The notes beneath the pieces are model-generated. The model had not been told where the DNA came from. It saw nothing but the letters and a program-made list of their open reading frames with translations, and searched no databases. A stretch of DNA of 64,000 nt from Opitutales bacterium (GTDB taxonomy: Bacteria; Verrucomicrobiota; Verrucomicrobiia; Opitutales; Seribacteraceae). The DNA lies in contig JAOHKZ010000010.1 in NCBI GenBank assembly GCA_028101545.1, positions 1-64,000 on the forward strand, given 5' to 3'. A program made the translations under genes and the position numbers. Below are positions 38,301 through 64,000 of this stretch, one piece after another (positions within the stretch are counted from its first letter, which is position 1; every line of letters begins with the position of its first letter).

Positions 38301-38830
38301 TTATTTTGTTCTAACACGGACCCGTAGGAATTGTTTTCCGCCTTTGGATTTTGCCGTTCCAGTCGTCTCGTAAAGAACGCGCTCCATTCCTCCACCAGAA
38401 TTAACTCCTTTTCCAGTTGTTCCGCCGTTCAGGTCAACTTGGGTAACACCAGTTGTGGTCCAAGTGCGTAAATCAGTACTTATTTCTACAATATATTCAA
38501 TACCTTCCGAGTTGTAAGAATCCTGGTATCGTTGGAAGGTAATTCTTTGTTTACCGTCTTTTTTATTAATGGATCGTGGAAGAACAGACTTGGCATCACT
38601 TGCCAGGGAATCCCCTCCAAATGCGCGTTCCATAAAATTACTCATTCCATCGCCATCGGAATCGGTATCATCTGAATCGAACATAAGTTCTGCATCCAAT
38701 GCATTAACAGAACCGTCGCCATTTAGGTCAATAAGGCCTTTAAGGTTTTTCTTGGTTGCAAGTTTGCGCGCAAATTTGATTTTTTCTTTTTCATAGCGAG
38801 GGTCAAGTCGTCTTTCGGCATAGAAAGCAT
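38301..38830 (-). other. C-terminal region of the giant protein
   Basis: A charged helix (RRLDPRYEKEKIKFARKL) leads into a dockerin/EF-hand-like loop and a thrombospondin-3-like Asp/Gly repeat, then a beta domain with EYIVEISTDLRTWTTTGVT and a basic end (FLRVRVRTK). Similar ends close large secreted proteins in Verrucomicrobiota. No LPxTG, PEP-CTERM or autotransporter barrel was seen. Confidence 0.6.
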
Positions 38831-41800
38831 TTTTGCCGGGTTGTTTTACAATAATTTCCCTAACAACACTTGCAGCTGCATTGTATGAGCTATCTCCCGC
38901 CTGAGAAGCGGTTATTCTTACGGTAAGACCTGCTTGGGGTATCGACGCATTAAAATTTTTGTTAAAAACAAGAATGGCATTGGCTCCATTACCGCTTAAC
39001 TGAAAGACGCTTCCTGGGTTTGTGGTAAGAGAGTAGGCGATAGCTAAATTGGAACTAGCGTTGGCCATACGGCCTATTGGAATTGGCTTTCTAGAAAGTG
39101 GAAGGTCGCGTAATCCACCTTTTTCCCCTTGTTTGAAAAAGATAGTTTGGCCCTGCTTGTTAGTTATATTGAAGGTAGCGTCTGCAGAACTGGTAAAGTA
39201 TAAAGTTCCTGTTGCTACTGCCCGAACTTTTACAACTCCAATAGAACTGCCACAGGTAATTTGACTTCCACTGATAGTAGCCGTGCCAGATACAATGGAG
39301 TAGGTTGGATTGACAGGTACGGGATTATTGGTGATCCCGTCAAGTACAACTGCTTTCACTGAGAAACTCTGACCTCTTCCCATATCCCCGATGGCGTCAA
39401 ATACGAGGTTAAGTGGACGTTTCACTAGAAAGGTCTGATCCACAAAATTGGCTGGAGCGTAAGTTGAATCTCCAGCTTGTCCAGATCGTACTGTTACCGA
39501 TCCAGTATTTGAGAATGTCAGCCTATTTCCGGATAAAGAGGCAATGCTGCTACCTGAAGCAATAGAGAAATTGGCATCCAAACCGGAAGACGCTGAAGCA
39601 TTCAAATCGAGAGGCAGATCAATCCTGACTTCGGTTGGAGTAGTGAAGGTTACTGTTTGTGAACGTCTGCCTAGAATCTTCATGTTATAGACTGCAGGAG
39701 TGGCGGCGGAGAAGTAGGCATTTCCCGCCTGCCTGGCTGTAATCCGCACAAGGCCCTGCCCCGTGGGTTGTAGTAGACCAGCAGAGGTTATGGAAATAAT
39801 CGAAGTATCATTCGACTCGTAAGATAGAGCAAGACCGGAGGTGGCGTAAACCCCTTCTAGTTCAAAGGCGGAATCAAAAATAGACATGAAGGGCACATTG
39901 TCACTGCTATCTGTAGGTATGTTGGTCGGATTGAGTGAAATGGACTGTGAACCTCCAAATAGAGGTTGGGAAGTTTTGAAAGGATGATTGGATGCGAGTC
40001 TCGAATTCGAACCCCACTTGTGGGCTAGGTATCCTTCCATCCGGCGGACGGCAAAGTCAGTCAGGCTACCGGAGAAGAGCATGACTTCGTGGACAACCGC
40101 ATTGCTTAACTGGTTGGCGACTGCTGCGGTCCCGTTACGCCCTGCACCGAGTATGATTTCCCTTGTTCCGGATGATGGAATGGCCGGCACACTGGTCCCG
40201 TACTGAGCGGATCCAATTTGATTGGTTCCATTGAAGAAGAATTCACCGTCGGCATAGGTCGCATTTGCTTTACGACGGAATGCTCCGACCTGAACATTTC
40301 CGCCAAAGTTGACTGAAGGGAAGGTCAGTTCACCTCCTCCGTTGAAGTAGTAGCCCCCGTTCTTGGCCATGCCCAGGACCTGTCCAGCAGTACCGGCGGA
40401 ATTTCCGAAGTGAAGAATTTTTTCCGGCTGAGTACCAGCTGTTTTGACGGCGACAAACAAAGTGAAGCTTGGATTGCCGGCGAGAATACTTGGCATCGTA
40501 GCTGTCATATGTGCTCCGGCATTGCCCAATGTTGAACCGAATGCCAATCCTGGTTTTCCACCGCTGATTACCCGGACGGGTTGCAGGTTGGTGGTTCCCT
40601 GGCTCAAGGTGTTGGAACTACCGGATCGGTCCGCCCATGTGCTGGCCTGGCTCTTTCCACCGTTGCTGATAAAGTCGGTATTCGATTCAGCAAGACCGTC
40701 CGCGTTAATATCATTTGCATCCAACCACAGAATCATGCCGGGAAGGGAGTCCGAGTAAGGACTCTTTTCGGTAACGGTCACCGAGAAGGTTTTAGATGTT
40801 GCAGGGTTATAAATCGCACTTCCGGATTGAGAAACTGTAATGGTTGCGGTTCCGTCACCTTTTGGTTTAAGGCGTGTTCCACCTCCAGTTATTTCAACAA
40901 TATTTGCATTGGAACTAGAGTATGCCAAGGCGAGTCCAGTTGATGCAAAAGTGCTTGTTTTAGCTGATTTAAGGGCAGGAGCAAATTCAAAATCAGCGTT
41001 ATCAATAGTGAGGTTGGGGATGGATGTCTGGTTACTATCAGTTACGATTCGCTGACCGGCTTTGGAAAGCGTGATTGTTTTATCCACAGTAGGTGCGGCC
41101 TGCCATTGTCCATTTCCAGCCTGAATTGCACTTATTGTGGTACTTCCTGCACCTACAACATGGAGGTATGTGTTGTTTATTATTGTGGCTACATTTGTGT
41201 TGGAACTAAAGTAGGAAACGGTAAGGTTCGAAGAAGCGGTGGCAGTCATATTGGTATCACTAGAATCAACAGTTAAGCCAGAAAGATTCTGGTTCCAAGA
41301 GATAGTTTGTGCCTGTTGGGTATCATCCAATATTGTTAAAGTACGAGTGGCATCACTAGCTGCGAGGTAGGTCCCATTTCCACCCTGCGTTGCCGTAATA
41401 GTAATAGTACCACCTTTTTTAAGGGTAAGAGTATTTCCACTTACTTCACCGACCGTAGTGTCGCTACTGTTAAAACTTACCGAAAGACCGGAAGATGCGG
41501 TCGCATTTAGTTCATAGGTTCCCGCACTCAGGTTTGCGTTACTTAAGCTGTTAAAGATAATGGTCTGCGTTACTTTATTAACGGTTAGTGTTTTCTCCAC
41601 AGTCAGGGCAGGGTTGTAGCTGCCATTTCCGTCCTGAGATGCTCGAATTGTTGTAACACCGGCCCCGGCAATTGTTACTGTGCCATTTGATTCTACGGTG
41701 GCACTAGTTCCTGAGACCACGGTAAAGCTAACCGGTAATCCGGATGAAGCTGTTGCATTCAATTCGAAATTTGCAGACTGAACGGTTTTGTCAGGAATGT

Positions 41801-44800
41801 CGATAAAGGTGATAGTCTGATCCACCCGTGGAGTAGCCGTTACAATGAAAGGCTGGGTTGCAGTTGCTGATAACCATGGAGCCTGTCCACCTTGGGTGGC
41901 AGTAATCGTTACCTTACCTACCTTCAATGGAGTGGCAACATTTCCGGAGAAGGAGACAACCGAACTATCATTACTGTCAAAAGTAAACACACTTAGTCCT
42001 GAATCGGAACTGACATCAAGGGTGACGGTTTGTCCAACTTGCTTATCTGGTACGGGTTGAAAAGTGAGAACTTGCACACCACCGAAGGCAGGTTTTCCGA
42101 CTTTATAAGAATGGGAAGAGGGTAGGTTGGAATTCAATCCCCATTTGTGAGCGAGGTAACCCTCGACTTTTTGACGAACACCAGAATTAAGTACACTTCC
42201 ATAGGCCACAAATTCGGCAATATCACCTGCAAAGTCGTTACCCAATTTAGTTGCGGAATCCGGTGCAACTGGATCTGTTCCAGTACCTTTGTTTACTCCA
42301 TTGACAAAGATTGCATAATTACCTGCTGACAACTGCATGGTTAAGAGTGCAGAAGCATGAGATGAAACACCCGAATCCATCCATGCACTTCCTTGTCGTT
42401 TCAGACCAAACTTACCGGCCGCAGTAGTGGCAAATATATTACTTCCTAATGGTTTTGTTTCGGCCGTCTGGTTGGATGCCTGTTTTAACACCGCAAACAC
42501 AGTGACAAAGTCATTGCTCGTGCTAATATTAAAACTCTGCGCGGCAGTAAAACGAACCGCACCCATTCCATTAAGGGCATTCGCTGCATAGGTAGGTTTA
42601 TTTGCATTTGTACCCTGACCGGGGTGATTATTATTCCCTGAGCGGTCAATCCATTGGGTAACATTTGATCCATTGGTCAAAATATCTTCTGTGGTATCAC
42701 CGTCCAAATTATTCCCATCTACCCAGAGGCGGAGTCCGGGGAAGGAGTCACTTTGCAAATTGTAGTATCCCACTGTTACAGTTTGCGTTACATTATTAGC
42801 TGCATTATATCCGGTATTTCCAGCTTGGCTTGCGGTGATAGTTGCGGTTCCCGCAGCACGAATCTTGATTGTCTGATTTGGTGCAGTACCTTGAATTTCT
42901 GCGATCAGGCTATCAGAACTGGCAAAGCTAACTGGTAGACCAGAACTGGCAACTGCGGTAGGGGAGAAGTCGAAATCACCCACAGATTTATCTGTAATGG
43001 GGGAGAATGAAATCGTCTGATCCGATTTATCAAAAGATGCGGCGATTGTTACAGCAGGTGCAGGAGCATAGCTATTATTTCCCTGCTGGTTGGCAGTGAT
43101 GGTAACATTACCCGCTGCTTTGACATGGATCCGGTTAAAATCACCGTTTCCTGAACCATACAGTTGACTAATTAAAGTCGAGTTTAATTCTGCTCCATAG
43201 AAACGAACATCGTCCAAGAGTCCGTTAAAGTATGCAGAACCATCCGTTCCGATCTTTAGATCATTAGCATTGCTCGTATTGATTGCAGTGGAACCAGATC
43301 CATTAGTAGCTGAACCATTAACATAGAGTTTTGCACCGCCAGTGTTTCCACTAGCTGGAATGGTAGCAGCGAGGTGATGCCAAGCTCCATCTGCTAGACC
43401 CGTGGTTGAACTCGTTAAGGTGGTTCCGCCCAAATCAAGAACCGCAGCTCCGGAAGAATTAAGAGATAGTTTGAACAGAGTGGCTGTTCCAGCAGCTCCA
43501 TATTGGAGTATTGGTTTATTGGCAGTAGATGTTTTAAACCATAACGCAATGGTACGACGATCTCCCCCGGTAATTCCTTTGAATCCAGAAGTATATGCGT
43601 AAATATTACTTCCATTAAGAGCAAATGCATTACCAAATTTACCTGAGCTGCCAAGTGCAGAAGAAGAGGTCGGAACGACTCCGGTTCGGCTATTGCCTGA
43701 TGAATCGTTCATGGTTGAACCACTCAGTTCATCCATTTTCCACCATCCCTGTAGACTACTTTGCATGGTTACTGCAAGTTCTGCAACGCTTGCATCACTA
43801 AGTGAGTAGGTGACAGGTAATCCTGACGCAACGGTTGCATTCAGGTCGATATACTGATTCACGCCATAGGAAGAAAAGTCCTGTCCCCATGCAATAGTCT
43901 GTTCGGTTTTGTTACTCTTGATCAATTGTCCATCCACATAAGTAATCGCATACTTTTGTGAAGCGGCATCGCTTGGGCGCACATAATAAGTACCTGCTGC
44001 ACTCGAATTGTTAGCGTCTGTAATAACGATTGGCCCGCGAGTCAGGGCAACGGTTTTATGTGAGTGATTGTTTGGTAAGTTCCCCTGTAAGCCCCACTTA
44101 TGAGCAAGGTAGCCCTCGATGGAGTCTCGATCACTTGAGTTTAATGTAGAATCTACAATTAAAAATTCAGCGATCTCACCTTCAAGGAAATCAGCGTTAG
44201 CTTGGTAATTAGTTCCGAGGTAGATTCCGTTGGATAAACTGGAGTTTCCTGTATTAAGACTACTTACTGTAGTACCATTAAGAGTTAGTTGGCTGCTTGA
44301 GGAATTGAATAAGGCAGAGAGAGTAAAGAAACCACTAGGTGTATTGAGGTTGGAATTAGCCCAATTGGTTGCCCATAGTTGAAGTTTTCCAGTATTGTTT
44401 AATGCAATCAAGCTTCGGTTTGCATTGTTGGTTATTCCATCAAAGAGATAATCTCGACCAGCCCCACCTGTCGTTTTCGCCACTGCAAAAATCGTGTAGG
44501 ATTGACTGATGTTGAGGGAGGAGGCGGAAAGGCTATCATCAACACCGTCAAAAGATATGGTTGAAAGACCGTTCTGTGTGCCTGAGGAAAGCATAGGCTT
44601 TTTGCTAGCTGTAGATTGTGCAGCGTGGACATTGTTTCCACTCTTGTCACTCCATTGGCTAATGGCGTTGGTTGCATGCGTGATTGAGTTTTCATCACTT
44701 GCATCCAGCCACAGTGCAAGATTACTGAGACCGGCAGGGTTAGCTGGGATAGCGAGTGAACTGTCATTGTGTTTCCATCCAGAAATTGTGTAGTTAAGAT

Positions 44801-56800: not shown

Positions 56801-59800
56801 ATGTTCCATTTATATTCATTTCCTCATCACCTGTACCACCATTCGCAGCCCCGCTTCGAAATTGAACGACTGGCATACCATTGGGTCCATCGGTTGAACT
56901 AAAGGCTGGGTCTCCGGTTGAAGTAGTGGCATGCCTACCATTGCCACTTTTATCATTCCAGGTGGTTACATTGGCAGAACTCAGGGATAGGGTGGAGGAA
57001 TCACTGGCATCATACCAAAGTGCAAATTTGGGTGCGATTTTACCAATATTTACCTCATTGTCCCAGGTATTTGCATTTTCACCACCATCACTTGAACCCC
57101 AATATAAAGTCAGATCGATACCGGTCCGTGTATCTTCATAAGGTCCAATGTTTGCCCACGGATGATCTAGTGGAAGATTACTCACCAAGCCCCACTTATG
57201 AGCTAGGTATCCTTCGGCATTTTGCCTGACTTGATCGGACATGGTTCCACGTACGACCATCATTTCGCCAAGCGTCCATTCCGTTCCGTCTGAGCTTCCT
57301 CCCGTACGTCCGATGTCTGGGAATTTGAATGCGCCACCGATATTAGTTACACTAGTCCGTGGTTTATTAAATACACTCGTACCATTATTAAAGATAATTT
57401 GCCTACCTTTGGTAACCGAGAAATCGTAGCACAGCATGAATGGTACATTTGCATCTGCGACTTTTACTTGATGACGCCCACCATCAAAGCGCCAATAGGT
57501 ATATGCATTACTCCAAGGTAAGTGGTCGCCCCATCCAAAGTTAAACGGAAAATTACTTCTTCTTACTGTATCAAACTGTCCAACCAGCATGACCACAACA
57601 TCGGAGATAGAACCACTGGCTGCTCCATTTGAACCGGCAGGATTCCAATTTGCATTTCCTTTTTTTGCAATGATATGCTCCATGTTACTATTACTTCTTT
57701 TATCAAATGTAATCGCGTTTAATCCGTTGATCGAAGCACCGGTATCAGGTTTGTTCGTTGCGTGTCCGTGTAGCTTGACGGTCGAGTCAATTTTATCGGT
57801 CCAGGTGGACACTTCGTTTGTACCTGATACTTTGGTGATACTGTTTGCATCTGCACCGTCTACCCAAAGAGTAATTCCAGGAAACTCACTTGCACTTAGT
57901 GTTCGTGGAGCGAAATTGACTGTACCGGTTCCAAAATTGGCAATCTTTGCAATTAGCTTCGCACTGGTACCTGTCGCATTTTGAACCGGACCATTTCCTG
58001 CAATTGGATTGGTTGATGTCTGCGTGGTAAAACTTTTCGATGAGTTTGCCCATGCATCTCCTCCACTGTGGGTTGCACGTGCCCGGTAGTAATAAGTGTT
58101 TCCGGGCGACAAGTCGCCAATTTGAATCGAGAAGACACCGCTTTGTTGGTTACCAATGTTTTTAACCGTGGTCCATGCATTGGGATCATTTGCCCCATCA
58201 GTCGTTCCATAATAAATCTTTACTTCAGGAGGGAGACCGCCAGAATTAGTCACATTGCCTTCAAAATTAGCATAGGAAGGTCCTACCGCATTAGCTGCTA
58301 AAGTAGCAATCGTTGGAGCCAATGGATTAATAGTAATGCTGAGTGAGATCGCATCGGCTGCGAGTCCATCCACATTACCCAACCGGTCATTGAGAGAGTC
58401 TGAGTCAGTAATGTCTCCATCATCGTCCGAATAATCAACTACAAGGGTAGCCTGAAAAGAACCTGCTTGGGTGGGAGTTCCACTTACTGCTCCGGTAGCG
58501 GGTACAAAAGTCAAACCGTCAGGTAAGTTAAGTATTGTATATCCGGATGGACTGTCTGATGCCGTTAGGTTGTAGGAAAAACTTTGTCCGTAGGTGCCAT
58601 CCACATAGAGAGGGGAGGTAATAATTCTAGGTCCGGTGACAGATCCGTAACTAACCAATTTTGTACCTGAGCTTTTTTGATTATCGAATTCCGCTTTGAT
58701 CCAATCAGCTGAACGAGCGACCGAAGAGTGTCTCATTTCATCCAATTGACCATCCCAAAAATATTGCCCGGTCGGGTTTTCATTCGCTCCCGCTCCGATT
58801 CTTAATCCGTAGAGCTCGTTTTTATGATACAGAGGATTACCAGTAACTGACACCGGGGTTCCTCCATTAAGATAAATTTTCTTGCTCGAACCATCGAAGG
58901 ATACAGTGACATGATGCCATGCATCATTGGAGTGACTAACAATGGGCGAAGTGTGCCAAGAACCTGCGCTCACTCCTTTTCCAGTCCAAAACCTAAAGTT
59001 TCCACTTTCCGAATAAAGCATATACCCATGGGTCAATCCACCACCATCATCTTTACGGGCACAGAATGGTGTGCGGTAACCAGTACCGGCACTTCCATCT
59101 CTTTTTGCCCAAATCGACATCGTAAAATTCTCGGTGTTAATGGTTTCAGAAAAAGCGATATCCGCAAATTCGGTACCAGTAAAGTTGGCTGCTTTGCCAA
59201 CTTGTCCGGAATTACTTACTCCTACGGAATTGCGGGTGGCATGGTTGGAGTTTGGGGAGGAATCTGCAAAGAGGGTTGAATCTGAAGTAAAGTGCCAAGC
59301 CCCTCCAAAATTTTCTGACCAAACTGGATCATCTGTTGCATAATCAGGAGTAGTTTCTGTTCCTAATTTTCCCCAAGCAGCGGTGATTACAGTATTTGTT
59401 CCAGAAATGGAAGGCACTTTTACCCAAATATTAGAAGTGCCAGTTACATTCCAATCCGCAATTTCATAGGGCAGTTCTTTTCCGTTAGATGCAAAAAAGC
59501 GGAGGTCTCCACCGTCTCTAATTCCATCCGCATCTGAATCTAAAAATGAATTATATGCAAAGCCACTGATCGAACTTTCGTTTAAATCTACGAGTACAGG
59601 AAATTCATTTAAAGTGGAAGATCCTGTATATCCAGATAGAGTAAGGTTCATACGAAAGGGGAAGGATGCAGGGTCACTAATTACAATAGTGTATACAAAA
59701 CTGTCCGTTTCAGTACCCCCTCCAGCGGTTGTACCAGTTGCAGTGACTGTAAAGGTTTGTGATCCGGTCACGCTGGTGGAGCCACTTATCTCACCGGTAG

Positions 59801-62800
59801 CTGAATTAATTGATAACCCGGGAGGTAGACCCGTTGCCACAAAGGTACCGCTTCCAGAAAAACCAACGGTGTAAGACATCGCAGTATCCTTTTTGGCAAA
59901 TACTTTTGTCCCGACATCATCATTCAAACTTGGTGGACCCACGAGGGTGCCAAAGTTTAAATAACTGGAGTTTGGTTTTTGGTTGTTAAAACTGGCAGAA
60001 ATCCATGAGGACGAACGACCCACTGTTGAAAAGGTAGCCTCGTCAAATACTGCATCCGGACCACCGTCGAGGGAGCCACGCCCCAGGGAGAGTCCAGTTA
60101 CAAAATCTTTGCCTAGGAAATACCATTTATTCGCTGTTCCATCCTGAACACCATCCACATAGAGGTTCATTTTTCCATCCTTGATGGATAGGGTTAGCAT
60201 TTGCCAATTTCCCGTACCCACATTGTCATTGGGATCAGTTAATCCAGCAAAGGATCCACCAGGTTGATTAAAACGATAGGGGTGGTTTTCGTCAAGCGAT
60301 CCACTCGTACCCCACTTGTGAGCAAGTTGTCCTTCAATGACTGCGATTTCATTATCATTCAGAGGTTGGTTGTAGATTAACAACTCGGCCAATTCACCGG
60401 CCCAGGTGCGGCCTGCATTATTCCGGTCATTAGAGAAGTTATTAGCCTGCACATTACCCAATGTACGAAGGGAGACCACAGATAAGGAACTGGGCATTCC
60501 GGTTGATGTGCCATTCACTGTTGAACCATTCACTTTTAGAAGACCATTTTTCACATTCGTATGTGCATGGGAGGAATGAAAGAAAGTATTACCATTCGTG
60601 TGAAAGTGATAAGTACTTGTATCCCCCAGAATAAACCGTTGGTCAGATGTGTCATTTCTGGCGAGCATTAAGAACACCGTTCTTATATCACTGATTCTTG
60701 TAAAAGAATGATATTCGGAATTACTGCCATTATAATCTATAACCGCTTTGCCATTGTAGGCGTTTGTCCGAAGGGTAGGGGAACCTGTTTTGGTCGCATG
60801 GTTGTTATTTCCACTTAAATCAGACCATGTGCTCCCGATACTGCTCAGGCTAGATGCATCGAGCCAAAGTTTAAGACCGGAAATCGTGGAAAAATCAAAA
60901 CTCGAATTAACCAGGGTGCTTGGGGGAGATGAAGTTGAGCTTTCCAGGCGAAGTACATAATTCGGATCGTTGTTGTACTGCACACCGAACCAGTCTTTTT
61001 CATCTGCTGGGTTACTTGGGGTTTTTGCCCAAATTGTGTAGGTTCCTTCCTTTGCCTTGATCGCACCATTTAGGGCATTGGAAAGAAATCCGTTTTCAGC
61101 GGAAGCTGTTGTGGAGTAAGCTGTTCCGGTTAGGCCGGAACTAGTTAAAGTCGGGGCATTAATTGCAGATAAATCGTTACCCGAAGGGCTGGAGTCTTTT
61201 GCCGGGCCGGTACTTTGTTCGAGGTGATAAACGCCAAAATAGTCATTCCATGCACTTCCATTGTTCGCGTAGCTCGGAAGTCCAGCACTTGGATTTCCCC
61301 AAAACATGGTGACATTCGCATCCGATTTTAAGGTGGGTGTACGAACCCATATCTGGGATTCCCCGTCGGTATTCCAATTTGCAATTTCAAAAAACAGTTC
61401 CTGTCCATCTTTATCTATGAAGCGAAGATCACCCCCATTGGCTGAACATTGAGAATACCGAAAACCCTTGGATCCAGGACCGGTTGAGTTATCCTCGGAT
61501 AACCTGACCAACATATTCCAGTCTTTCAGAGGAGTACCTCCATTAAAGTCAGTGGTAAAAGAAAGAGAGTAGTCCCAATTTGTAAAATCAGCAACAGTTA
61601 GAGATACATCCTGAACATTAGAACCCAGGGTGTTAACTGCCCGAACCTGGAAATTGTATGTTCCAGAAGTAGGTGGCGTACCGGTAACCAAACCTGAGGT
61701 CGACCCAACCGATAGCCAACTAGGGGCATTGAGGAGGGAGTAGGTTATGGAAGAATTATAACCGGTCAGACCATGGGCTGGATTTGCGGATATTTGATAG
61801 GATACCGATCTGCCATTGGAACCGGAAAGTGTGGATGGACTGGTTAAAGCAAATTTGGGTGCTCCGATATCGCCTGCACGATCATTATGAATAGCGGACA
61901 CCTCATCGGCGGTAAGGACGCCACGATAAAATCGAACATCATCAACTTTTGCCCGAGTCGCAACTGAACCGAAAGGATCGGGGTCACCCAGAATTAACTT
62001 GATTGCTGAGTCAGTTACTGAACCGCTTTGACTAGCGGTTCCAATTTGATTCCCATCGATATAAATCTTTTTGTTTCCACTTCCAAAAGTAACGGAGAGG
62101 TGATGCCAGTCACCATCATCAATCGTGGTGGGTTGCGTAAATTGACCGCCTGCACCAGTCAAATCGAGAGTGATGTCATTTTGACCATTGGCACCTCGTT
62201 CAATCGCCCATCCGCCTACCGTTGGTGCTGTCGATTTATGAGCATGCCCAGAAGGTAGCACGCTGGTCAAAGACCATTTATGTGCTAAGTTTCCTTCAAT
62301 TAAAATCCGTTCTGCATCCGTCATTATATCGTTAAAGATAATGAATTCAGATAAATTGAACTTAGCTGAATTACCTCCGTCTTTTCTGCCGCCGATACTG
62401 ACCGGATGACTAGAAGATCCAATATTTCCAGTATCGCTTTGGCTAATTACTTCGGTACCGTTCAAATATAGTTTTCGGGTGCCTCCACCAAAACGGAGAT
62501 TTAAAATCATTGGATCATGTACTTTATTGGAATGGCTTGTATTGATTTCCGGGGTATCTCCACCCGATGTACCGTTGACCCGGAAACGATAAGCGGCTGG
62601 GTTTTGGTCAGGCCTCCGTGCCAAGAAATGCCAGGATGTATTGGAACTGGTTCCATTATTAGTGGCATTTGTCTTACCAAACCAGATCCGCCAGGTATCT
62701 GCGGCCAATTCATCCATCACCGCAAAGACTTCCAATTCGGACCACGCATCAAAGCTTTCATTACTATCATCGAGTAACATGGTACTATAATCAAATCTCA

Positions 62801-64000
62801 TCGTGGGTTTAGAGCTAAGATCAGAACTTTTCCAGTATGGGCCTTTACCAACAATTTTCCTTGCGTGATGTCCATTACCACTCCGGTCATACCATAACAT
62901 AACTGCCTGACCGTCACCTGGTGGTGATATTCCTTCGTTGGTTGAAAGATGCTGTGGATAGGTTGCATCCAACCAGGTCATCAATTTTCCATAATTTGCA
63001 GGGGAATAATCATCCTTGGCGATTAAGGACTGACCGGGGTCCGATGGCCAGCCTTTGACCCACATGGAAACGGAAAAATTGGAGTCCCCGTCAAAAGTAT
63101 CTTCTGTTCCTCCGGTGGATACGGTGGCAAATGCACCGTTTGTTAAATCAAAGGCACGCCCATTATTTGAAAAAGTATCCGTGGTAAAGGGTGAGTTACC
63201 TGTAACAGGAATTACTTCTTTGTATGGGTGAGCGTTAGGTAAACTGCTAGTCAGGTTCCAACGATGGGCAAGATAACCCTCAATCTTTTCCCGATCGGAT
63301 GTTGAAAGGGCAGTGTCAAAAATGAGAACTTCTGAAACTTTGGAATTTCCGTAAGTGCTGCTAATTGAGCCAATTCGCAGTTCGCTGTTTTGATTGGCAG
63401 CTGTACCCGTTGGCCCAGAGTTTAGGAACGCAGAACCATTAAGTGTTCCGGTGGTAACAGACCCGTCCCAAATTGCTCCGATAACTACCGGGGTATTAAT
63501 GGCGCCTGGTGTCCAATTATTATTTGCCTCCGCACCGGATCCACTAAACCCGTTCTGTTGAATGATCCATCTTGGTGTGGCAAGAGCAGAGTTTGCTCCG
63601 TTATGTGTGAGTAGTCCAAGGGCAAAGGTTCCGCTACCCCCGATACCACCCCCTTTACCTACAAAAGTTGAACATCTTCCTCCGCCGGATTGGTGAAATG
63701 TATTTGCTCCGCCCTGACCAACCACAAATACCGTCCAGGTGTCTCCTCCTGTTCGTGAGTCCAAATCGGTAGATCCTAAAGTTGGGCTCCCATCATTCCG
63801 GTTTAAGGAGTCATTCGTTCCATCAAAGGATAGGGTGGGCATGGAATTCAATCCATTTGTGCTGAATGTGGGTTTGCTCGCTGCCGTGCCCTGTGTGACA
63901 TGTTTATTATTTCCACTTTTATCACTCCATTGACTTACTGCATTGGAGGAATGTGTGACACTGCTTTCATCTTTGGCATCAAGCCAAAGTTCCAAATCAC
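38301..64000 (-). CDS. Giant modular surface protein with nested LWLDA modules, 5' end outside window
   Basis: One minus-strand frame with no stop from the window's right edge to 38301: at least 8,565 residues, N-terminus missing. TTG 63995 is not the start, because module 1 is already under way. In order it contains LWLDA modules, LamG, putative-Ig (He_PIG), DUF2341, Fn3-like domains, three glycine-rich domains, PA14-like and other beta-sandwiches, an MBG unit, and a tandem array of BIg2-like domains. It ends in a Ca-binding repeat region (DLNGDGSVNALDAELMFDSD, DTDSDGDGMSNFMERAFGGD) and a beta domain with IEYIVEISTDLRTW. All recognisable parts are extracellular lectin or adhesin folds. The repeats are diverged, so the frame is under selection. 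A surface adhesin or polysaccharide-binding role is inference. Translocation signals would lie outside the window. Confidence 0.93.
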   Translation of the reverse strand, partial: DLELWLDAKDESSVTHSSNAVSQWSDKSGNNKHVTQGTAASKPTFSTNGLNSMPTLSFDGTNDSLNRNDGSPTLGSTDLDSRTGGDTWTVFVVGQGGANTFHQSGGGRCSTFVGKGGGIGGSGTFALGLLTHNGANSALATPRWIIQQNGFSGSGAEANNNWTPGAINTPVVIGAIWDGSVTTGTLNGSAFLNSGPTGTAANQNSELRIGSISSTYGNSKVSEVLIFDTALSTSDREKIEGYLAHRWNLTSSLPNAHPYKEVIPVTGNSPFTTDTFSNNGRAFDLTNGAFATVSTGGTEDTFDGDSNFSVSMWVKGWPSDPGQSLIAKDDYSPANYGKLMTWLDATYPQHLSTNEGISPPGDGQAVMLWYDRSGNGHHARKIVGKGPYWKSSDLSSKPTMRFDYSTMLLDDSNESFDAWSELEVFAVMDELAADTWRIWFGKTNATNNGTSSNTSWHFLARRPDQNPAAYRFRVNGTSGGDTPEINTSHSNKVHDPMILNLRFGGGTRKLYLNGTEVISQSDTGNIGSSSHPVSIGGRKDGGNSAKFNLSEFIIFNDIMTDAERILIEGNLAHKWSLTSVLPSGHAHKSTAPTVGGWAIERGANGQNDITLDLTGAGGQFTQPTTIDDGDWHHLSVTFGSGNKKIYIDGNQIGTASQSGSVTDSAIKLILGDPDPFGSVATRAKVDDVRFYRGVLTADEVSAIHNDRAGDIGAPKFALTSPSTLSGSNGRSVSYQISANPAHGLTGYNSSITYSLLNAPSWLSVGSTSGLVTGTPPTSGTYNFQVRAVNTLGSNVQDVSLTVADFTNWDYSLSFTTDFNGGTPLKDWNMLVRLSEDNSTGPGSKGFRYSQCSANGGDLRFIDKDGQELFFEIANWNTDGESQIWVRTPTLKSDANVTMFWGNPSAGLPSYANNGSAWNDYFGVYHLEQSTGPAKDSSPSGNDLSAINAPTLTSSGLTGTAYSTTASAENGFLSNALNGAIKAKEGTYTIWAKTPSNPADEKDWFGVQYNNDPNYVLRLESSTSSPPSTLVNSSFDFSTISGLKLWLDASSLSSIGSTWSDLSGNNNHATKTGSPTLRTNAYNGKAVIDYNGSNSEYHSFTRISDIRTVFLMLARNDTSDQRFILGDTSTYHFHTNGNTFFHSSHAHTNVKNGLLKVNGSTVNGTSTGMPSSLSVVSLRTLGNVQANNFSNDRNNAGRTWAGELAELLIYNQPLNDNEIAVIEGQLAHKWGTSGSLDENHPYRFNQPGGSFAGLTDPNDNVGTGNWQMLTLSIKDGKMNLYVDGVQDGTANKWYFLGKDFVTGLSLGRGSLDGGPDAVFDEATFSTVGRSSSWISASFNNQKPNSSYLNFGTLVGPPSLNDDVGTKVFAKKDTAMSYTVGFSGSGTFVATGLPPGLSINSATGEISGSTSVTGSQTFTVTATGTTAGGGTETDSFVYTIVISDPASFPFRMNLTLSGYTGSSTLNEFPVLVDLNESSISGFAYNSFLDSDADGIRDGGDLRFFASNGKELPYEIADWNVTGTSNIWVKVPSISGTNTVITAAWGKLGTETTPDYATDDPVWSENFGGAWHFTSDSTLFADSSPNSNHATRNSVGVSNSGQVGKAANFTGTEFADIAFSETINTENFTMSIWAKRDGSAGTGYRTPFCARKDDGGGLTHGYMLYSESGNFRFWTGKGVSAGSWHTSPIVSHSNDAWHHVTVSFDGSSKKIYLNGGTPVSVTGNPLYHKNELYGLRIGAGANENPTGQYFWDGQLDEMRHSSVARSADWIKAEFDNQKSSGTKLVSYGSVTGPRIITSPLYVDGTYGQSFSYNLTASDSPSGYTILNLPDGLTFVPATGAVSGTPTQAGSFQATLVVDYSDDDGDITDSDSLNDRLGNVDGLAADAISLSITINPLAPTIATLAANAVGPSYANFEGNVTNSGGLPPEVKIYYGTTDGANDPNAWTTVKNIGNQQSGVFSIQIGDLSPGNTYYYRARATHSGGDAWANSSKSFTTQTSTNPIAGNGPVQNATGTSAKLIAKIANFGTGTVNFAPRTLSASEFPGITLWVDGADANSITKVSGTNEVSTWTDKIDSTVKLHGHATNKPDTGASINGLNAITFDKRSNSNMEHIIAKKGNANWNPAGSNGAASGSISDVVVMLVGQFDTVRRSNFPFNFGWGDHLPWSNAYTYWRFDGGRHQVKVADANVPFMLCYDFSVTKGRQIIFNNGTSVFNKPRTSVTNIGGAFKFPDIGRTGGSSDGTEWTLGEMMVVRGTMSDQVRQNAEGYLAHKWGLVSNLPLDHPWANIGPYEDTRTGIDLTLYWGSSDGGENANTWDNEVNIGKIAPKFALWYDASDSSTLSLSSANVTTWNDKSGNGRHATTSTGDPAFSSTDGPNGMPVVQFRSGAANGGTGDEEMNINGTFKVKEHFYVVRSPSENWSDYGGIIGNGASRESNYLFERNQKYFHSNKYPAKVWKDGDSISSSNFNLETINAYMILRIVVNDNNLGPHSNWKIGDITGWSMDMDLAEAMCFSTSLTDEEADKVEGYLANKWGLSGTLANTHTYKVSSISDPKSLFENSVDLTNLVKGNTYHYRIKASNSQGTDWSDATASFVSESAIDLSSGTLTFNTSGPTPYWSASDGTKGNGVLETLSWTDANQNTVQYKVAKFSFDRLVIGDGVNVKLTGENPIHMDIAGDATISANITANGNHASTIGPQIQNSGQLGGGFGGGISPVRAQDLLGWFPFDASSGSIAKNLGTAGSDATLVSGAVFSTAVVKQGTSSLHIPTASTRACAQVNTPIYVGPNNSSNDYSLSTWFRDLYAPVGRWRTLTRGSNANHQVILAQNNDSLGTHSGWVDSGYDLPASASAGTWQHLVATFDGTYTKFYIDGTFVGQLTGSKGNNIRDIGSYSGNDQRFAQYLDDFRVYGIVLSASEASSIYNNGNGDLSYAHGSGPAHLVGTSPFNSGGSRYKGGTLTGSGLVAGNAPGGGSYGGSGGRPEGNGGTDSQGAHSISGGVYGTLAMDAFLGGSGGGAGQNRAGGAGGGAIKIVASGTLTIDGNIIANGGIGGTAPVNDASLAGGSGSGGAVYLKGNNLVINAGVSITADGGPGASFVSSGGNSQSTDGGGVGPAAGGGGRVFIEGTTTFLNHHSVTNENITANSGGKASPAGLFSKDVDGLTLWLDAADSSSITHSSNAVSQWSDKSGNNNHATQSTSANQPVLTSSGLQFDGTNDGFTLTNDISHPNLNIFVVLQGYGYLFANNGTDRALFLNSNQNLYWTFNSSSTIDNVAISAYSSSSSQLLEFSLNSGTAKLRLNGAEVSSQGSISGNLKIDRIGLKWDSSTSQPTWTGKIMEVLALTSTSERRKTEGYLAHKWGILKGSRPGQDGTVRIVRPQVSALAFTSGTLTIDTDKAEIAHTDGSYMLGEYENKTYSLNGKTYNYKVSKFTADNISIGSGVVVNLVGTNPLSLQTRNNGDLTLGSTINANGGAGTEGPNTGGIGKLGGYNGGTTATSGNGPGAGSAYSPNFGPSAINSLELWLDASSLGSADSTWSDSSGKSNHASKGGSPSVVTNAQNGLSVMNYTANGQRHKFSMINTVRTVFWVVSQDSSVNGSGFRYILSDSTKHPHWHNNNNGKFWGSYTAAQVKNGITRLNGTAINGETTNYPNNLSVVALRTTSNADADQFGYDRTITDRQWIGKLGELIIYSTPLTDSEIQKVEVYLAKKWGLESSFPNSHPSNLAHAGGGAGYAGKGNDPFIGITTNTYGDGALTNLIGGSGGGGGDYPGGAGGGAVELLAHGDGALTLTSGAKILANGGDASRVHAKSGGGGSGGAIKLSGGSVSIAGTLEVKGGKGLTATEGGGGRISIQTNGNLVLGTTTLNGYHVGSLHISGATPTNSLSLSSGTLVFDTTFGYWHHTSGVHGVGTIEQKEDADGISYKTCTFTFDSINLAAGLNVVLQGENSLILKTRNNGNFSVGTNLNANGGNAQDTYVGYYSAIDHGIGKLGGLNGGIKALTNGSGSGGGKLEGGGVSGNLVGGGGGYGSAGEYNSNDFDYGKTYGIPTLSHLLGGSGGGAASQSGGGAGGGAISLEADGNGTLTILTGATVSANGGGVSTSLANIGGGGSGGSIRLAGRQIINNGTISAKGATPPASASNYDGGKGGGGRVAFNYSLNLTEGTVELGSGALEGSKSYNTPPSVSNSSLTSTLSYSNNSYRKQSATRYNDLVLWYPFDDASGATIMDYSQYERNGTLVNASGNNWIKGKSGGAISLDNSAGTYSNDPSGEYLQMGTWSLGGAFTFTSWVKADDFRADARLINLDGTYKLAVHLGSPNNLSSLFGSTPGGDEIHDSGTGFWQWKAWTHIAVSLENAGTDSSTIRYYKNGSLFSSSTSATAPVVENRTSQFIGRSDTSNSFHEYFSGDLDDLRIYRVNLSASEIASVYAETNSSLVYTIEGLNNPTSFSATGLPTGLSLNPNTGEISGHSTSIGDHNVTIIASNLSGSSPSKTLTLTIGASKPIIETNYPVTRESDLLGWFKFDETSGTTASNYGTKGSAALLAGGATFSTSEKKFGSSSLNLPTGSTGAYAQVTTPIDLSGNPFTLSFWFKKLYGTGAFRTLTRDNSSNYHHVIINNGTNNIGTWGWVDSGYDLPTSTSASSWNHLVVSFDGTTGKFYHEGNFVGSVNADRSSNIYAIGNYQGGGQRFAEYLDDFRIYGVALTANEAAAVYGEGNGDLFAVNSGSTSATATVTLKETGGANVSMDIFYGTVDKGATTTGWDANTSLSGNQSAGQVTLGMNGLSGNTSYVFRIRSTNSAGSTWSDAYSFKTGNKLDPPSVTAQDASSVAGSSVTANGTVVSFDGNTQPTTTLYYDTEQSLTDGKFDPFTPLSLGSGLRLWLDANDSSTITHSSNAVSEWRDKSGNGFNLTQSTAGSKPTYNGTSKKITFATDFLSASAPSLTQPLSFFIVAEYSGANTNDQYIHDSSTGRYRLGEWSTQGFGFPSGDAALRSASLNPIGKSIYACKFNGSSSNLFINGGHALSGTHPATSFGGNYVLGAHNNGSGSPFQGSIYEHLIVSGSLSSFERQKIEGYLATKWGLSSALNASRYIGAEGWTSSHLTGDADSGISAEHNYTCAVSLNGSNKTINGVTFEGASGTGGTGWQITAGMTSTHNSQASTVGGQIGAMLSNGMRYAGDPQKIKISGLTPGKSYVFTLYNQAWEASGREAILSCSELSATVTLNQSQYGSSSQDGLLVNCSYTASGSEAEFTIDPTTNSTWHIYGFSNRVADYDFPVQTNLPTTAVNLGQKAVGAFTHNLTGLSAGTTYKYRFSVQNQGGISLSDVKTFTTLGPPIVETPGATEITKTSAKLNSKLTFTNGNDSNVTFYWGDDIKQGTTILDFATGQSSNDDLSSTFGSSLSSAVSGATVSDGGTTNISLAWTAASNVLEVHGGSGFNFLDPSTSSVDVLQLDMDGGVALPYVTFNVDSGKALYLQSLVIGHATDMTEADSTWTLTITKAGGSQVFSMTTAAMGPGDKELVNFNFMGQAGTNYVLTFNDNGAGHVRAAIDNLKFSQIDTTNWDNNHALSGSHGIGVLSHSLTGLTTGADYFYTSKATNSAGTVWGPVKTFKPANTSINKYSIPGLALWLDATDINGDGNVDNLSNGTAVSNWTDKSLENQTISQSTSTNQPAIASTSFGSKSGVRFDGNGDILNVSSVRTTAGGYSIYALTRRAVDSGDANAHLVSESSWALIPSTTNSAFTAKVAKKSAASGSTLTNIKLGKSASSSSNDFAGDLAELLLFTRQLTSQEEQQVEGYLAHKWGAADSLDANHTYKDVPPIFNNGPRIEELSGVVFHPVHASVFMGPNPSSGQNNLDGATYSYSNARVFTGSKGLLAHTGDSHNIQLSNTNVDIQNWNHFPSFSGGNNFMTAISGSFLATNTGSYTFRWSNDDAGGMYIDLNHDGIFASSESLAPWAWDGSGTLELVAGTVYNFFYMTAEGGGGDTNNWYVTQPGGSEERVNLGKPSQIAMWSAPSVDAILTTGKPISLQVPASRNPTSWTATGLASGLSINNSGVITGSTGFIGDFNATFTAINSDGNDSRTFSFNVIKGRRVIDWNQTISGKSYGDAPFTLTATKTGTDTSLDNFPSTLPGMKLWLDASSLSSAGSTWTDKSPADNDATKVGSPSVVTNSQNGLSVMSYSGATSESHAFTTITDIRTVFWVVSEDSSVSGSGLRYLLGDTVEPDWHTQGDGNIWGHQWGEPKVYNGYTRLNGVPIDGRVTAKPTSLSILTVRTTSNARATSFSNDRNIAGRSWKGKLGELLIFNAPLDDDQMQRMEGYLAQKWGLTSSLPSNHPYLTVSPAAFRYSSSNPEIIDINGSTAIIKSGGSVTITAHAPANTSAHSAIPVSQAVSIAKAPLTITGDDLSITQGASIPDLNYTISGWKHNDSSLAIPANPAGLSNLALWLDASDENSITHATNAISQWSDKSGNNVHAAQSTASKKPMLSSGTQNGLSTISFDGVDDSLSASSLNISQSYTIFAVAKTTGGAGRDYLFDGITNNANRSLIALNNTGKLQLWATNWANSNLNTPSGFFTLSALFNSSSSQLTLNGTTVSSLNTGNSSLSNGIYLGTNYQANADFLEGEIAEFLIVDSTLNSSDRDSIEGYLAHKWGLQGNLPNNHSHKTVALTRGPIVITDANNSSAAGTYYVRPSDAASQKYAITYVDGQLIKSNKTEQTIAWGQDFSSYGVNQYIDLNATVASGLPVTYSLSDASVAELAVTMQSSLQGWWKMDELSGSTMNDSSGNSRTGVVPTSSSALGSSGKFGNAFALNGSNIYAYTSGFKGITGGDRRTIALWFKTSTANKPILQYGAAGTATLFKLSLNSSGAAVLDLGGTTLTSSTTGLADGAWHHLAATIPASGNTGGAKLYVNGSATNGSGSTAINTSNANDLKIGTDGSAYFNGLLDDVRFYGAELNSTLISQLYGSGNGDFNRIHVKAAGNVTITANQQGNNSYAPAPAVTIAASFDKSDQTISFSPITDKSVGDFDFSPTAVASSGLPVSFASSDSLIAEIQGTAPNQTIKIRAAGTATITASQAGNTGYNAANNVTQTVTVGYYNLQSDSFPGLRLWVDGNNLDGDTTEDILTNGSNVTQWIDRSGNNNHPGQGTNANKPTYAANALNGMGAVRFTAAQSFNISTSNDFVTVFAVLKQASNQTAETKPLGSNIFATTAAGKFGLKRQGSAWMDSGVSSHASALLTMQLSAGNYAIFVNGVNKGTGTDPVAPDSATKLGNDFAGDIAEFVAYGSVLNSGVRQKVEGYLAHKWGLNSNLPSSHSYKVGKPAFGGVQVLTFQPVPDKQVGQTVTLDVSSDSGLSVFTFDSNDSSVVSFSGNVATPLKVGKVTITATQGGQAPWLSATATQPFIVTATPRVDQTITFIDIPDKTVQSANFELNATASSGLPVSFTVVSGTSATVESNGTVTIAGAGVTTIRASQDGNGSYNPALTVEKTLTVNKVTQTIIFNSLSNANLSAGTYELNATASSGLSVSFNSSDTTVGEVSGNTLTLKKGGTITITATQGGNGTYLAASDATRTLTILDDTQQAQTISWNQNLSGLTVDSSDTNMTATASSNLTVSYFSSNTNVATIINNTYLHVVGAGSTTISAIQAGNGQWQAAPTVDKTITLSKAGQRIVTDSNQTSIPNLTIDNADFEFAPALKSAKTSTFASTGLALAYSSSNANIVEITGGGTRLKPKGDGTATITVSQSGSAIYNPATSKTFSVTVTEKSPYSDSLPGMILWLDANDINADGLAESNTDFISNGGKSQASTWADRSGSSNTLSQGTTNLQPVRVISGGKPGLAFGSTLGNAGAHMTATMPSILAGNPSFTLFVAVKTAGTQPEKILHFGNSAGTAGQVLGMAKNGGYYFNGGGELTFPSVNFGGNVQVGAFRRKANATYADGEFFFNGTNQIGSAQYGTSVPAIPSSGTREIILGAGRNGTAAVANQLSNAVVHEVMLFSGSLTDFAVRRMEGYLAHKWGSNSRLASNHPFKTSQPLFGGSQSISLNPTNIPTDSSDNVPFMSIFDSAFELEGVYATSGLALSYESNDTSIISITSAGLLQPTGQGLVRITARQAGNAYFSAATPAVYNMKILGRRSQTVTFTTPTEVRIDLPLDLNASASSGLDANFSIASGSSIASLSGNRLTFSNTGSVTVRSGQAGDSTYAPANFVDQTFLVKRPLNLVFDAIGDMGRGQSFSVKAVVLDGITNNPVPVNPTYSIVSGTATISGSQITCGSSIGVVKVRAVATGTLYFTSSADATFNITNKQGQTIFFKQGEKGGLRDLPLSRKPIPIGRMANASSNLAIAYSLTTNPGSVFQLSGNGANAILVFNKNFNASIPQAGLTVRITASQAGDSSYNAAASVVREIIVKQPGKNAFYAERRLDPRYEKEKIKFARKLATKKNLKGLIDLNGDGSVNALDAELMFDSDDTDSDGDGMSNFMERAFGGDSLASDAKSVLPRSINKKDGKQRITFQRYQDSYNSEGIEYIVEISTDLRTWTTTGVTQVDLNGGTTGKGVNSGGGMERVLYETTGTAKSKGGKQFLRVRVRTK
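39975..40739 (-). repeat. LWLDA module 13 (variant), in the BIg2 array
   Basis: From GMILWLDANDINADGLAESN to EGYLAHKWGSNSRLASNHPF. Confidence 0.86.
42102..42737 (-). repeat. LWLDA module 12 (variant), in the BIg2 array
   Basis: From GLRLWVDGNNLDGDTTED with WIDRSGNNNHPGQG to EGYLAHKWGLNSNLPSSHSY. Confidence 0.86.
43140..43757 (-). repeat. LamG nested in a BIg2-like domain
   Basis: LQGWWKMDELSGSTMNDSSG to LDDVRFYGAELNSTLISQLY and GNGD. The host BIg2 reads GLPVTYSLSDASVAEL before it and IHVKAAGNVTITANQQGN after it. Confidence 0.8.
43960..44870 (-). repeat. MBG domain split by LWLDA module 11
   Basis: The MBG pattern starts LTITGDDLSITQGASIPDLN and YTISGWKHNDSSLAI, is broken by module 11, and ends RGPIVITDANNSSAAGTYYV and KYAITYVDGQLI. 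Confidence 0.72.
44055..44732 (-). repeat. LWLDA module 11 (type I), nested in MBG domain
   Basis: From GLSNLALWLDASDENSITHA to EGYLAHKWGLQGNLPNNHSH. Confidence 0.87.
45033..45650 (-). repeat. LWLDA module 10 (type II), nested in a BIg2-like domain
   Basis: From GMKLWLDASSLSSAGSTWTD with IRTVFWVVSEDSS to EGYLAQKWGLTSSLPSNHPY. The host reads VIDWNQTISGKSYGDAPFTL before it and FRYSSSNPEIIDINGSTAII after it. Confidence 0.85.
46010..46590 (-). repeat. PA14-like beta domain
   Basis: GSFLATNTGSYTFRWSNDDA, MYIDLNHDGIFASSESLAPW and ELVAGTVYNFFYMTAEGGGG have the look of a PA14 sugar-binding sandwich. A He_PIG-type Ig domain follows to about 45785. Confidence 0.6.
46599..47173 (-). repeat. LWLDA module 9 (variant)
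   Basis: From GLALWLDATDINGDGNVDN to EGYLAHKWGAADSLDANHTY. It lies between domains. Confidence 0.86.
47210..48045 (-). repeat. Fn3-like domain split by a jelly-roll-like domain
   Basis: TSAKLNSKLTFTNGNDSNVT and FYWGDDIKQGT are followed by a different beta domain (about 47375-47915; LDFATGQSSNDDLSSTFGSS, AAIDNLKFSQ), then TTNWDNNHALSGSHGIG, LTGLTTGADYFYTSKATNSA and WGPVKTF complete the Fn3. Confidence 0.65.
48055..49560 (-). repeat. Fn3-like domain split by LWLDA module 8 and another beta-sandwich
   Basis: VAGSSVTANGTVVSFDGN and TTTLYYDTEQSLTDG come first. After module 8 and a separate domain (about 48225-48770; KTINGVTFEGASGTGGTGWQ, WHIYGFSN) the Fn3 resumes with FTHNLTGLSAGTTYKYRFSV and SDVKTFTT. 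Confidence 0.65.
48775..49412 (-). repeat. LWLDA module 8 (type I), nested in Fn3-like domain
   Basis: From GLRLWLDANDSSTITHSSNA to EGYLATKWGLSSALNASRYI. Confidence 0.87.
49880..50493 (-). repeat. LamG domain
   Basis: DLLGWFKFDETSG, SWNHLVVSFDGTTGKFYHEG, LDDFRIYGVALTANEAAAVY and GNGDL. An uninterrupted Fn3-like domain follows to about 49605. Confidence 0.8.
50748..51404 (-). repeat. LamG domain
   Basis: DLVLWYPFDDASGATIMDYS, AFTFTSWVKADDF, AWTHIAVSLENAG and LDDLRIYRVNLSASEIASVY. A He_PIG-type Ig domain follows to about 50530 (GLPTGLSLNPNTGEISG). Confidence 0.8.
51505..52385 (-). repeat. Glycine-rich domain 3, uninterrupted
   Basis: LSSGTLVFDTTFGYWHH, CTFTFDSINLAAGLNVVLQG, GIGKLGGLNGGIKALTNGSG, GGGGGYGSAG, LLGGSGGGAASQSGGGAGGG, GGGGSGGSIRLAGRQIINNG and GGKGGGGRVAFN run without a break. 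It shows the complete unit that copies 1 and 2 carry in pieces. Confidence 0.82.
52386..53880 (-). repeat. Glycine-rich domain 2, split by LWLDA module 7
   Basis: FTSGTLTIDTDKAEIAHTDG, YKVSKFTADNISIGSGVVVN and GIGKLGGYNGGTTATSGNGP come first, then module 7, then AHAGGGAGYAGKGNDPFIG, LIGGSGGGGGDYPGGAGGGA and GGGGSGGAIKLSGGSVSIAG. Confidence 0.8.
52858..53475 (-). repeat. LWLDA module 7 (type II), nested in glycine-rich domain 2
   Basis: From SLELWLDASSLGSADSTWSD with VRTVFWVVSQDSS and LSVVALRTTSN to VYLAKKWGLESSFPNSHPSN. Confidence 0.88.
53925..54542 (-). repeat. LWLDA module 6 (type I), nested in glycine-rich domain 1
   Basis: From GLTLWLDAADSSSITHSSNA to TEGYLAHKWGILKG; it lacks the usual HPYK end. 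Confidence 0.85.
55230..55858 (-). repeat. LamG nested in glycine-rich domain 1
   Basis: DLLGWFPFDASSG to LDDFRVYGIVLSASEASSIY and GNGDL. Close sibling of the LamG at 49880-50493 (shared VDSGYDLP and RFAxYLDDFR). Confidence 0.8.
56373..57032 (-). repeat. LWLDA module 5 (type I), nested in Fn3-like domain
   Basis: From FALWYDASDSSTLSLSSANV with WNDKSGNGRHAT to EGYLANKWGLSGTLANTHTY. Confidence 0.85.
57150..57878 (-). repeat. LWLDA module 4 (variant), nested in Fn3-like domain
   Basis: From GITLWVDGADANSITKVSGT to EGYLAHKWGLVSNLPLDHPW. Confidence 0.85.
58025..58285 (-). repeat. Fn3-like domain, uninterrupted
   Basis: PSYANFEGNVTNSGGLPPEV, IYYGTTDGANDPNAW, IGDLSPGNTYYYRARATHSG and WANSSKSFTT follow in one run. 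It is the internal control for the split Fn3-like domain that comes next. Confidence 0.75.
58840..59665 (-). repeat. Second DUF2341 plus LamG, uninterrupted
   Basis: FPFRMNLTLSGYTGSSTLNE, GGDLRFFASNGKELPYEIAD and ITAAWGKLG give DUF2341. The LamG follows without any insertion (AWHFTSDSTLFADSSPNSNH, DAWHHVTVSFDGSSKKIYLN; it continues a little further to DGQLDEMRHSSVARSADWIK near 58690). It serves as control for the split copy at 59960-61600. Confidence 0.75.
59960..61600 (-). repeat. DUF2341 domain and linked LamG, split by LWLDA module 3
   Basis: DUF2341 is seen in WDYSLSFTTDFNGGTPLKDW, GGDLRFIDKDGQELFFEIAN and VTMFWGNPSAG. The linked LamG starts at VYHLEQSTGPAKDSSPSGND, stops after DPNYVLRLESSTSSPPST, and resumes at GTGNWQMLTLSIKDGKMNLY after module 3. 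Confidence 0.75.
60273..60878 (-). repeat. LWLDA module 3 (type II), nested in LamG
   Basis: From GLKLWLDASSLSSIGSTWSD to GQLAHKWGTSGSLDENHPYR, with IRTVFLMLAR and LSVVSLRTLGNVQANNF typical of type II. Confidence 0.88.
61870..63165 (-). repeat. LamG domain split by LWLDA module 2
   Basis: The first half runs from FDLTNGAFATVSTGGTEDTF to SLIAKDDYSPANYGK. The second half resumes at GWAIERGANGQNDITLDL and runs through DDGDWHHLSVTFGSGN and VDDVRFYRGVLTADEVSAIH. Together they make one LamG; the gap holds module 2. Confidence 0.8.
62235..62984 (-). repeat. LWLDA module 2, nested in a LamG domain
   Basis: From LMTWLDATYPQHLSTNEG through MLWYDRSGNGHHARK to EGNLAHKWSLTSVLPSGHAH. Confidence 0.85.
63218..64000 (-). 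repeat. LWLDA module 1 (type I), cut by window edge
   Basis: Starts at LELWLDAKDESSVTHSSNAV and ends with EGYLAHRWNLTSSLPNAHPY. Free-standing as far as can be seen. Confidence 0.85.

Follow-up and report, generated by a model that had tools for sequence, protein, structure and literature searches.

Nested LamG-like modules of a giant putative adhesin in Opitutales are probably exchanged between slots, genes, and species

Results

A giant gene carries 17 LamG-like modules

A single open reading frame on the minus strand fills positions 38301 to 63998 of the window (the whole stretch of 64,000 nucleotides analyzed here) and runs for 10,277 codons up to the end of its contig, G000:C2, which at 69,134 bases reaches beyond the window. 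Because a likely start and signal peptide (MQQLRFFPIFFFICSTSLLSAQ) are found near codon 22 of this frame, the contig probably holds the whole gene, which would have about 10,256 codons. The backbone of the encoded protein consists of Fn3, Ig-like, MBG, glycine-rich, and LamG_3 domains. Neighboring genes encode a sulfatase and PSCyt/DUF1501 proteins, a setting that we take to fit a polysaccharide user. A PSCyt1-PSCyt2-LamG_3-PSD1 protein (29868 to 33623, minus strand), in which LamG_3 stands between two conserved domains, adjoins the DUF1501 and sulfatase genes.

The window genome (G000) is 57% complete in 92 contigs. It also holds a paralogue, here called g23 (G000:C23:77397-98909; L043, L044), which runs for at least 7171 codons before the end of contig C23 truncates it and which matches the host order of the giant gene. 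Homologues with the same host order were found across the genus and family of the window genome. The relatives identified by name (Opitutia ARS1007, Opitutales 0.2_20180511_Bin_168_1, and Verrucomicrobia TMED44) are Opitutales metagenome-assembled genomes (MAGs) that we assume to be marine from their sample names and general knowledge.

The recurrent unit of the giant protein is a LamG-like module bounded by the motifs LWLDA...EGYLAHKWG..HPYK. A module HMM of 236 positions, made from 23 copies, matched 13 modules in the window (scores of about 150 to 240, with module 9 as two pieces) and 4 more upstream, giving 17 in the gene; the original prediction had counted the same thirteen in one frame. 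The features, in window coordinates, are as follows.

38301 to 63998, minus strand: 3′ part of the giant gene, 8565 of about 10,256 codons; the remainder lies on G000:C2, to 69134
63213 to 64000, minus strand: module 1, in a LamG_3 host whose left part lies past the window edge (HMM)
62229 to 62993, minus strand: module 2, second insert in the LamG_3 host of module 1; host pieces about 62994-63212 and 61863-62228 (HMM)
60267 to 60884, minus strand: module 3, in a DUF2341-linked LamG; host pieces about 60885-61241 and 60009-60266
57150 to 57887, minus strand: module 4, first insert in an Fn3-like host; host pieces about 57888-58016, 57033-57149, and 56217-56366 (HMM)
56367 to 57032, minus strand: module 5, second insert in the Fn3-like host of module 4
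55224 to 55868, minus strand: canonical LamG_3, a cassette of the other type, in a glycine-rich domain upstream of module 6; missing from the homologous stretch of g23
53931 to 54548, minus strand: module 6, in a glycine-rich domain; host about 54549-55181 and 53478-53930
52857 to 53477, minus strand: module 7, in the next glycine-rich domain after the host of module 6
48768 to 49415, minus strand: module 8, in an Fn3-like host that also holds an approximately 180-residue "SHLTGDADSG" domain
46593 to 47183, minus strand: module 9, between Fn3-like and PA14-like domains, not nested (HMM, in two pieces)
45027 to 45656, minus strand: module 10, in a BIg2-like domain; host about 45657-45779 and 44844-45026
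44049 to 44729, minus strand: module 11, in an MBG domain; host about 44730-44852 and 43899-44048
42099 to 42746, minus strand: module 12, between BIg2-like domains
39966 to 40745, minus strand: module 13, between BIg2-like domains

A second nested canonical LamG_3 occupies amino acids ~6748 to 6950 of the window frame, in a BIg2-like domain, and at another place a LamG_3 of the window gene stands opposite an LWLDA module in g23. In g23 the "SHLTGDADSG" domain sits inside an LWLDA module (amino acids ~6190 to 6375); in the window gene that domain comes after module 8.

The module HMM also matched canonical LamG_3 weakly (E values of 1e-3 to 1e-5), which indicates that modules and LamG_3 are distant relatives. 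When ten modules were scanned with Laminin_G_3 (PF13385), module 2 scored 36.4, above the cut-off of 27.6, modules 8 and 3 reached 25.3 and 17.4, and the others had no match; the modules matched no Pfam family of their own. AlphaFold2 modeled module 10 with high, module 4 with fair, and module 5 with poor confidence. The nearest solved folds were a cyanophage tailspike domain, a GH43 arabinanase domain, and several receptor-binding domains (Z of about 10 to 17); against the phage tailspike domain, the model of module 4 gave a Z of 17.5 (208 residues aligned, 2.9 Å) and that of module 10 a Z of 13.5 (182 residues, 3.0 Å). Modules 4 and 10 are therefore modeled as a concanavalin A-like/LamG lectin-type jelly roll by similarity of fold, and the "lectin domain" of the original prediction stands as a fold assignment. 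The modules share this fold type with the Laminin_G_3/concanavalin A-like superfamily; they differ from it in that most fall below the cut-off or go unmatched and in carrying a C-terminal helix, EGYLAHKWG. Modules of this type occurred in 31 of 289 genomes sampled across the phylum.

Most modules interrupt another domain

Ten of the 13 modules in the window (1 to 8, 10, and 11) lie inside another domain, in which they are nested in frame; modules 9, 12, and 13 lie between domains. Modules were cut out in silico and the joined flanks were scored with HMMs from uninterrupted homologues, for which 15 of the 17 sites were suitable. At all 15, the joined flanks scored about as much as the left and right parts added together, and they did so as one continuous match except at module 4, where the match came in two stretches. 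The joined host of module 6, for example, reached 166.6 bits (left, 64.1; right, 96.9) and that of module 8 reached 121.8 bits (43.0 and 80.7). Mispaired flanks scored lower for hosts that occur once (those of modules 3, 6, 7, 8, 10, and 11) and not for repeated host types, as expected. In relatives, homologous hosts continue across the insertion sites without a module. The claim that most modules lie inside other domains whose sequence resumes on the far side is thus borne out by both excision and uninterrupted homologues.

Pfam profiles gave a more varied picture. The joined MBG_2 host of module 11 scored 55.6 bits over positions 1-71 of 72, versus 25.0 (1-33) and 30.2 (39-71) for its halves; the LamG host of module 3 scored 38.8 bits joined, with no match on the left and 22.1 on the right, and passed the cut-off only when joined; and the LamG_3 host joined across modules 1 and 2 scored 75.6 bits. 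The expectation that joined flanks would match better than either half held for MBG_2 and the module 3 LamG; it did not hold for the Pfam Fn3 host, where joining gave no improvement (21.9 versus 20.0), nor did the flanks of module 4 form one stretch.

The Fn3 result, barely above that of the right part, would suit flanks that are separate small domains standing beside the module and not one split domain, as would the failure of AlphaFold2 to fold the BIg2 host confidently (<70 pLDDT). We consider this arrangement extremely improbable, given that homologues cross the sites without an insert, that the MBG_2 and module 3 LamG matches require both halves, and that the Fn3 host, modeled with moderate confidence, shows seven strands drawn from its three pieces, mostly at 60 to 91 pLDDT. 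Split hosts are hence the preferred reading. AlphaFold2 host models, which were of low confidence, did not prove nesting structurally, and the lists of structure matches were filled by the modules. Of the tolerant surface loops that the original prediction had envisaged for host plus insert, structure prediction accordingly recovered the folded inserts (modules 4 and 10) and not the loops.

Slots are empty, occupied, or refilled in relatives

Slots were mapped on a module-free backbone, with homologous hosts included whether strictly orthologous or not. Occupied/empty homologues, among which some "empty" rows of the repeated host types (Fn3 and BIg2) may be neighboring repeats, numbered 2/9 for module 3, 10/5 for module 4, 3/12 for module 5, 0/13 for module 6, 0/11 for module 7, 0/4 for module 8, 1/6 for module 10, 4/5 for module 11, 7/1 for module 12, and 4/4 for module 13. 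The module 9 slot was occupied in three homologues, and none was found empty. The host of module 1 is empty in g23, G005, G012, and G028 and filled in the G009 orthologue.

What fills a slot varies. The cleanest case is the Fn3 loop of module 5, which is empty in G034, filled by a module in G000, G009, and G035, and filled by PA14 in G007, g23, G005, G028, and two G031 genes. The module 4 slot is often filled by other module types in homologues, and the sole occupied homologue of the module 10 slot (G035) carries a different module type, 27% identical. PA14 and canonical LamG_3 domains use the same slots as the modules or similar ones.

Modules 6, 7, and 8 appear to be in-frame insertions, since relatives have the same hosts empty, and gain is the simpler reading for all three because every other homologue lacks them. 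The comparison of empty and occupied sites indicates that several modules (these three and also 3, 10, and 11) were gained within this family, later than the divergence of the lineages, and not by one ancient shuffling, in line with the spread by in-frame insertion that had been proposed. Module 12, whose copies cluster together on the module tree, appears to be old and vertically inherited.

Module contents probably move between slots, genes, and species

Modules in the same slot of the window genome and of G007 or G035 were often 24 to 38% identical, with hosts at 52 to 54%, and the nearest relatives of many modules occupy other slots. Module 10 of G035 is 78% identical to module -1 of TMED44, while their hosts are 50% identical; module 7 of the window gene is closest to the module-0 (Fn3) slot of G007/TMED44 (65 to 66%), and its module 5 is 62% identical to module 3 of G035. 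In such cross-slot pairs, similarity stops within a few residues of the module borders. The comparison of a module tree with the insertion sites of relatives, which the original prediction had put forward, was also informative: on a quick tree without bootstraps, slot labels change 28 times, compared to 16 if each slot formed one clade and 36 to 44 with shuffled labels, a position in between which suggests that slots have memory and that contents also move. Slots are stable yet often hold unrelated modules in close relatives, which suggests that much of the mobility consists in swapping the cassette of an existing slot for a different one.

Such replacement is visible at the DNA level in G017, where the gene is present twice (C14, 1-24422; C6, 6038-30472), each time between different outer flanks. 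For the most part, the host stretches of the two copies are 93 to 100% identical. At six slots, however, the module DNA is 64.7, 68.2, 55.6, 67.8, 65.8, and 60.3% identical between flanks of 85 to 100% (93 to 100% in five of the six), and two other modules are 98.5 and 100% identical. Modules contain 5754 of the 7811 low-identity columns, versus 3144 expected (circular-shift P of about 0.0025). Part of the divergence lies outside modules: a LamG_3 of a DUF2341 unit is replaced, and at one place a module in C14 faces a different sequence in C6. In two alignments read base by base, the switch falls in or adjoining the module ends. Both copies are broken into several frames (L082, L083, L091, and L093) by frameshifts that are either real or from sequencing. 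For one swapped cassette, the C14 copy had no close DNA match in G017 or five relatives, and the best other full-length protein match to the C6 copy in G017 was 39% identical. With no near donor for the cassette searched, donors may be other strains or species.

A second pair, G007 and TMED44, aligns at ~73% DNA identity throughout the common part; the alignment breaks only in and around modules -3, -2, and -1 and runs unbroken through two other modules. In the pairs examined as DNA, most replaced stretches lie within modules.

An alternative account would have all modules ancient and vertically inherited, with their differences due to losses and fast divergence in place. Modules could evolve faster than their hosts, modules 12 and 9 group largely by slot, and modules 1 to 5 are 90 to 98% identical between G000 and G009. 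This account is nevertheless unlikely, because the sites of modules 6 and 7 are empty in all 13 and 11 homologues, distant ones included; because same-slot modules of 25 to 38% identity have closer relatives at other slots; because the quick tree exceeds the 16 changes of strict inheritance by slot; and because six slots of G017 differ strongly in genes that share other modules at 98.5 to 100% identity. Gain and exchange of modules therefore remain the preferred reading.

The named relatives are MAGs, the modules are repeats, and contigs often end in or near modules, so that the patterns could in principle stem from assembly chimeras at repeated module ends. The architecture is, however, reproduced in an independent MAG, G009, at 84 to 91% DNA identity over modules 1 to 5, part of 6, 8, and 10 to 12, and it is therefore not an assembly artifact. 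The G017 copies, moreover, differ by several percent at and past the 3′ border of slot x1947, unlike a misjoin at identical words, and swapped contents are also found between the separate assemblies of G007 and TMED44. We thus judge chimeras to be a very unlikely cause and retain exchange. The G009 orthologue is fragmented (contig C146 stops inside module 6, and C7 spans module 8), and module 7 is known from one assembly only. Where both genomes are assembled, the architecture is identical, and no very recent insertion polymorphism between G000 and G009 was seen.

Border sequences and a model of exchange

Repeated entry into unrelated hosts with clean borders could reflect a mobile DNA element (transposon, intein-like, or palindromic) that is dedicated to carrying the module and inserts in frame, and a 10-base direct repeat (GGTGCAGGGT) does stand at both borders of module 7. 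Across the 17 modules, with the exception of module 7, no terminal inverted repeats or target-site duplications were found beyond chance: direct and inverted border repeats averaged 5.8 and 5.5 bases, as at random (5.5 and 5.6). The lectin fold fills the modules, leaving no space for a recombinase; the copies are diverged; and the repeat at module 7 falls within glycine-rich coding sequence, in which short repeats occur often. There is accordingly only a slim chance of such an element. The "mobile domain" of the original prediction therefore holds in the sense that contents are replaced at existing slots and fails in the sense of self-mobility, and its interpretation as a whole is partly supported; stable slots with exchanged contents were not foreseen there. 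The repeat of module 7 (52857 to 53477) is longer than those at the other 16 modules and could be microhomology or chance in glycine codons.

Synonymous conservation of the module ends was considered as a recombination signal and set aside. Identity at third codon positions in the conserved ends is 0.46, compared to 0.39 to 0.43, a slight rise that does not amount to a strong DNA recombination signature.

We propose that the giant protein is a split-domain-type adhesin whose LamG-like cassettes are probably exchanged between slots, genes, and species by homologous recombination. The cassettes would be set in loops, each budding out of a split host domain, and a resident cassette would be replaced through homologous recombination or gene conversion. 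The necessary homology could come from the conserved ends of the cassettes or from allelic host flanks, and the evidence fits either. Other genes, cells, or species may serve as donors, and selection would retain those events that leave frame and fold intact. To enter a new loop for the first time, a cassette would need a separate, nonhomologous step.

Discussion

The protein is most likely a giant secreted surface protein, specifically an adhesin; this best guess follows from its signal peptide, its Ig-like, Fn3, and lectin-fold domains, and the analogy to RTX adhesins. In the latter, host domains are split to project ligand-binding domains (PMC12077191, PMC10865825). The resemblance extends to very large size at the cell surface, tandem Ig-like repeats, a binding domain that emerges in the middle of another domain, nesting that is sometimes twofold, and PA14 and carbohydrate-binding modules as cargo (PMC12077191, PMC10865825). 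At the sequence level, hosts interrupted by a budding domain are found here as well. RTX adhesins, however, have few split domains, near one end (PMC12077191, PMC10865825), whereas the protein described here has 17 cassettes of the same family in at least five host folds along its length, with contents exchanged between slots and relatives. No RTX repeat families were among the Pfam matches at an E value of 0.01 over the 8565 residues in the window, and the likely N-terminal signal peptide would point to Sec export instead of type I secretion. Since the cassettes are assigned a lectin fold and the protein resembles known adhesins, cassette exchange may change the surface glycans or partners that are bound.

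A second parallel is domain movement (DOMO) within the genes for type I restriction S subunits of H. pylori and others (PMC3077401), where a domain moves between nonhomologous positions and loci, probably by recombination at flanking sequences. The same domain at nonhomologous positions of homologous genes is also what the cross-slot pairs, with their sharp borders, display. DOMO involves two positions and repeats outside the domain (PMC3077401); in the present family the slots are many and their hosts unrelated, the homology would lie in cassette ends or allelic host flanks, and entry into new sites is also seen. The breakpoints read out fall at or inside module ends, and third-position identity at these ends is slightly raised. 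Split-domain adhesins and DOMO are both known, but the literature searched, which lacked many subscription papers, yielded no case that combines the two on such a scale and no earlier account of LamG cassettes that are nested or exchanged in proteins of this kind.

More broadly, we see an even chance that a cassette system diversifies the giant adhesins of marine Opitutales. In it, a family-wide pool of LamG-like domains (with PA14 and LamG_3) would be exchanged among fixed, nonhomologous slots across paralogues and species, so fast that two almost identical genes of the same genome present different binding domains. If true, the system would amount to an analogue of antigenic-variation cassettes that is internal and has many slots. 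Reconstructions of domain insertion usually have to rely on events that are rare and ancient. In this protein, one module family has entered several unrelated folds, relatives offer empty, filled, and refilled slots, and one gene pair shows swaps between flanks of high identity. The rules that govern such insertion (tolerant loops, host folding, and frame keeping) would thereby become directly testable, and the system offers a route to seeing how uncultured marine bacteria may change surface recognition. Two modules of this type were also observed in a 14,967-codon frame of a one-contig genome from the same order and a different family (G153:C1, ~3955414-3957012).
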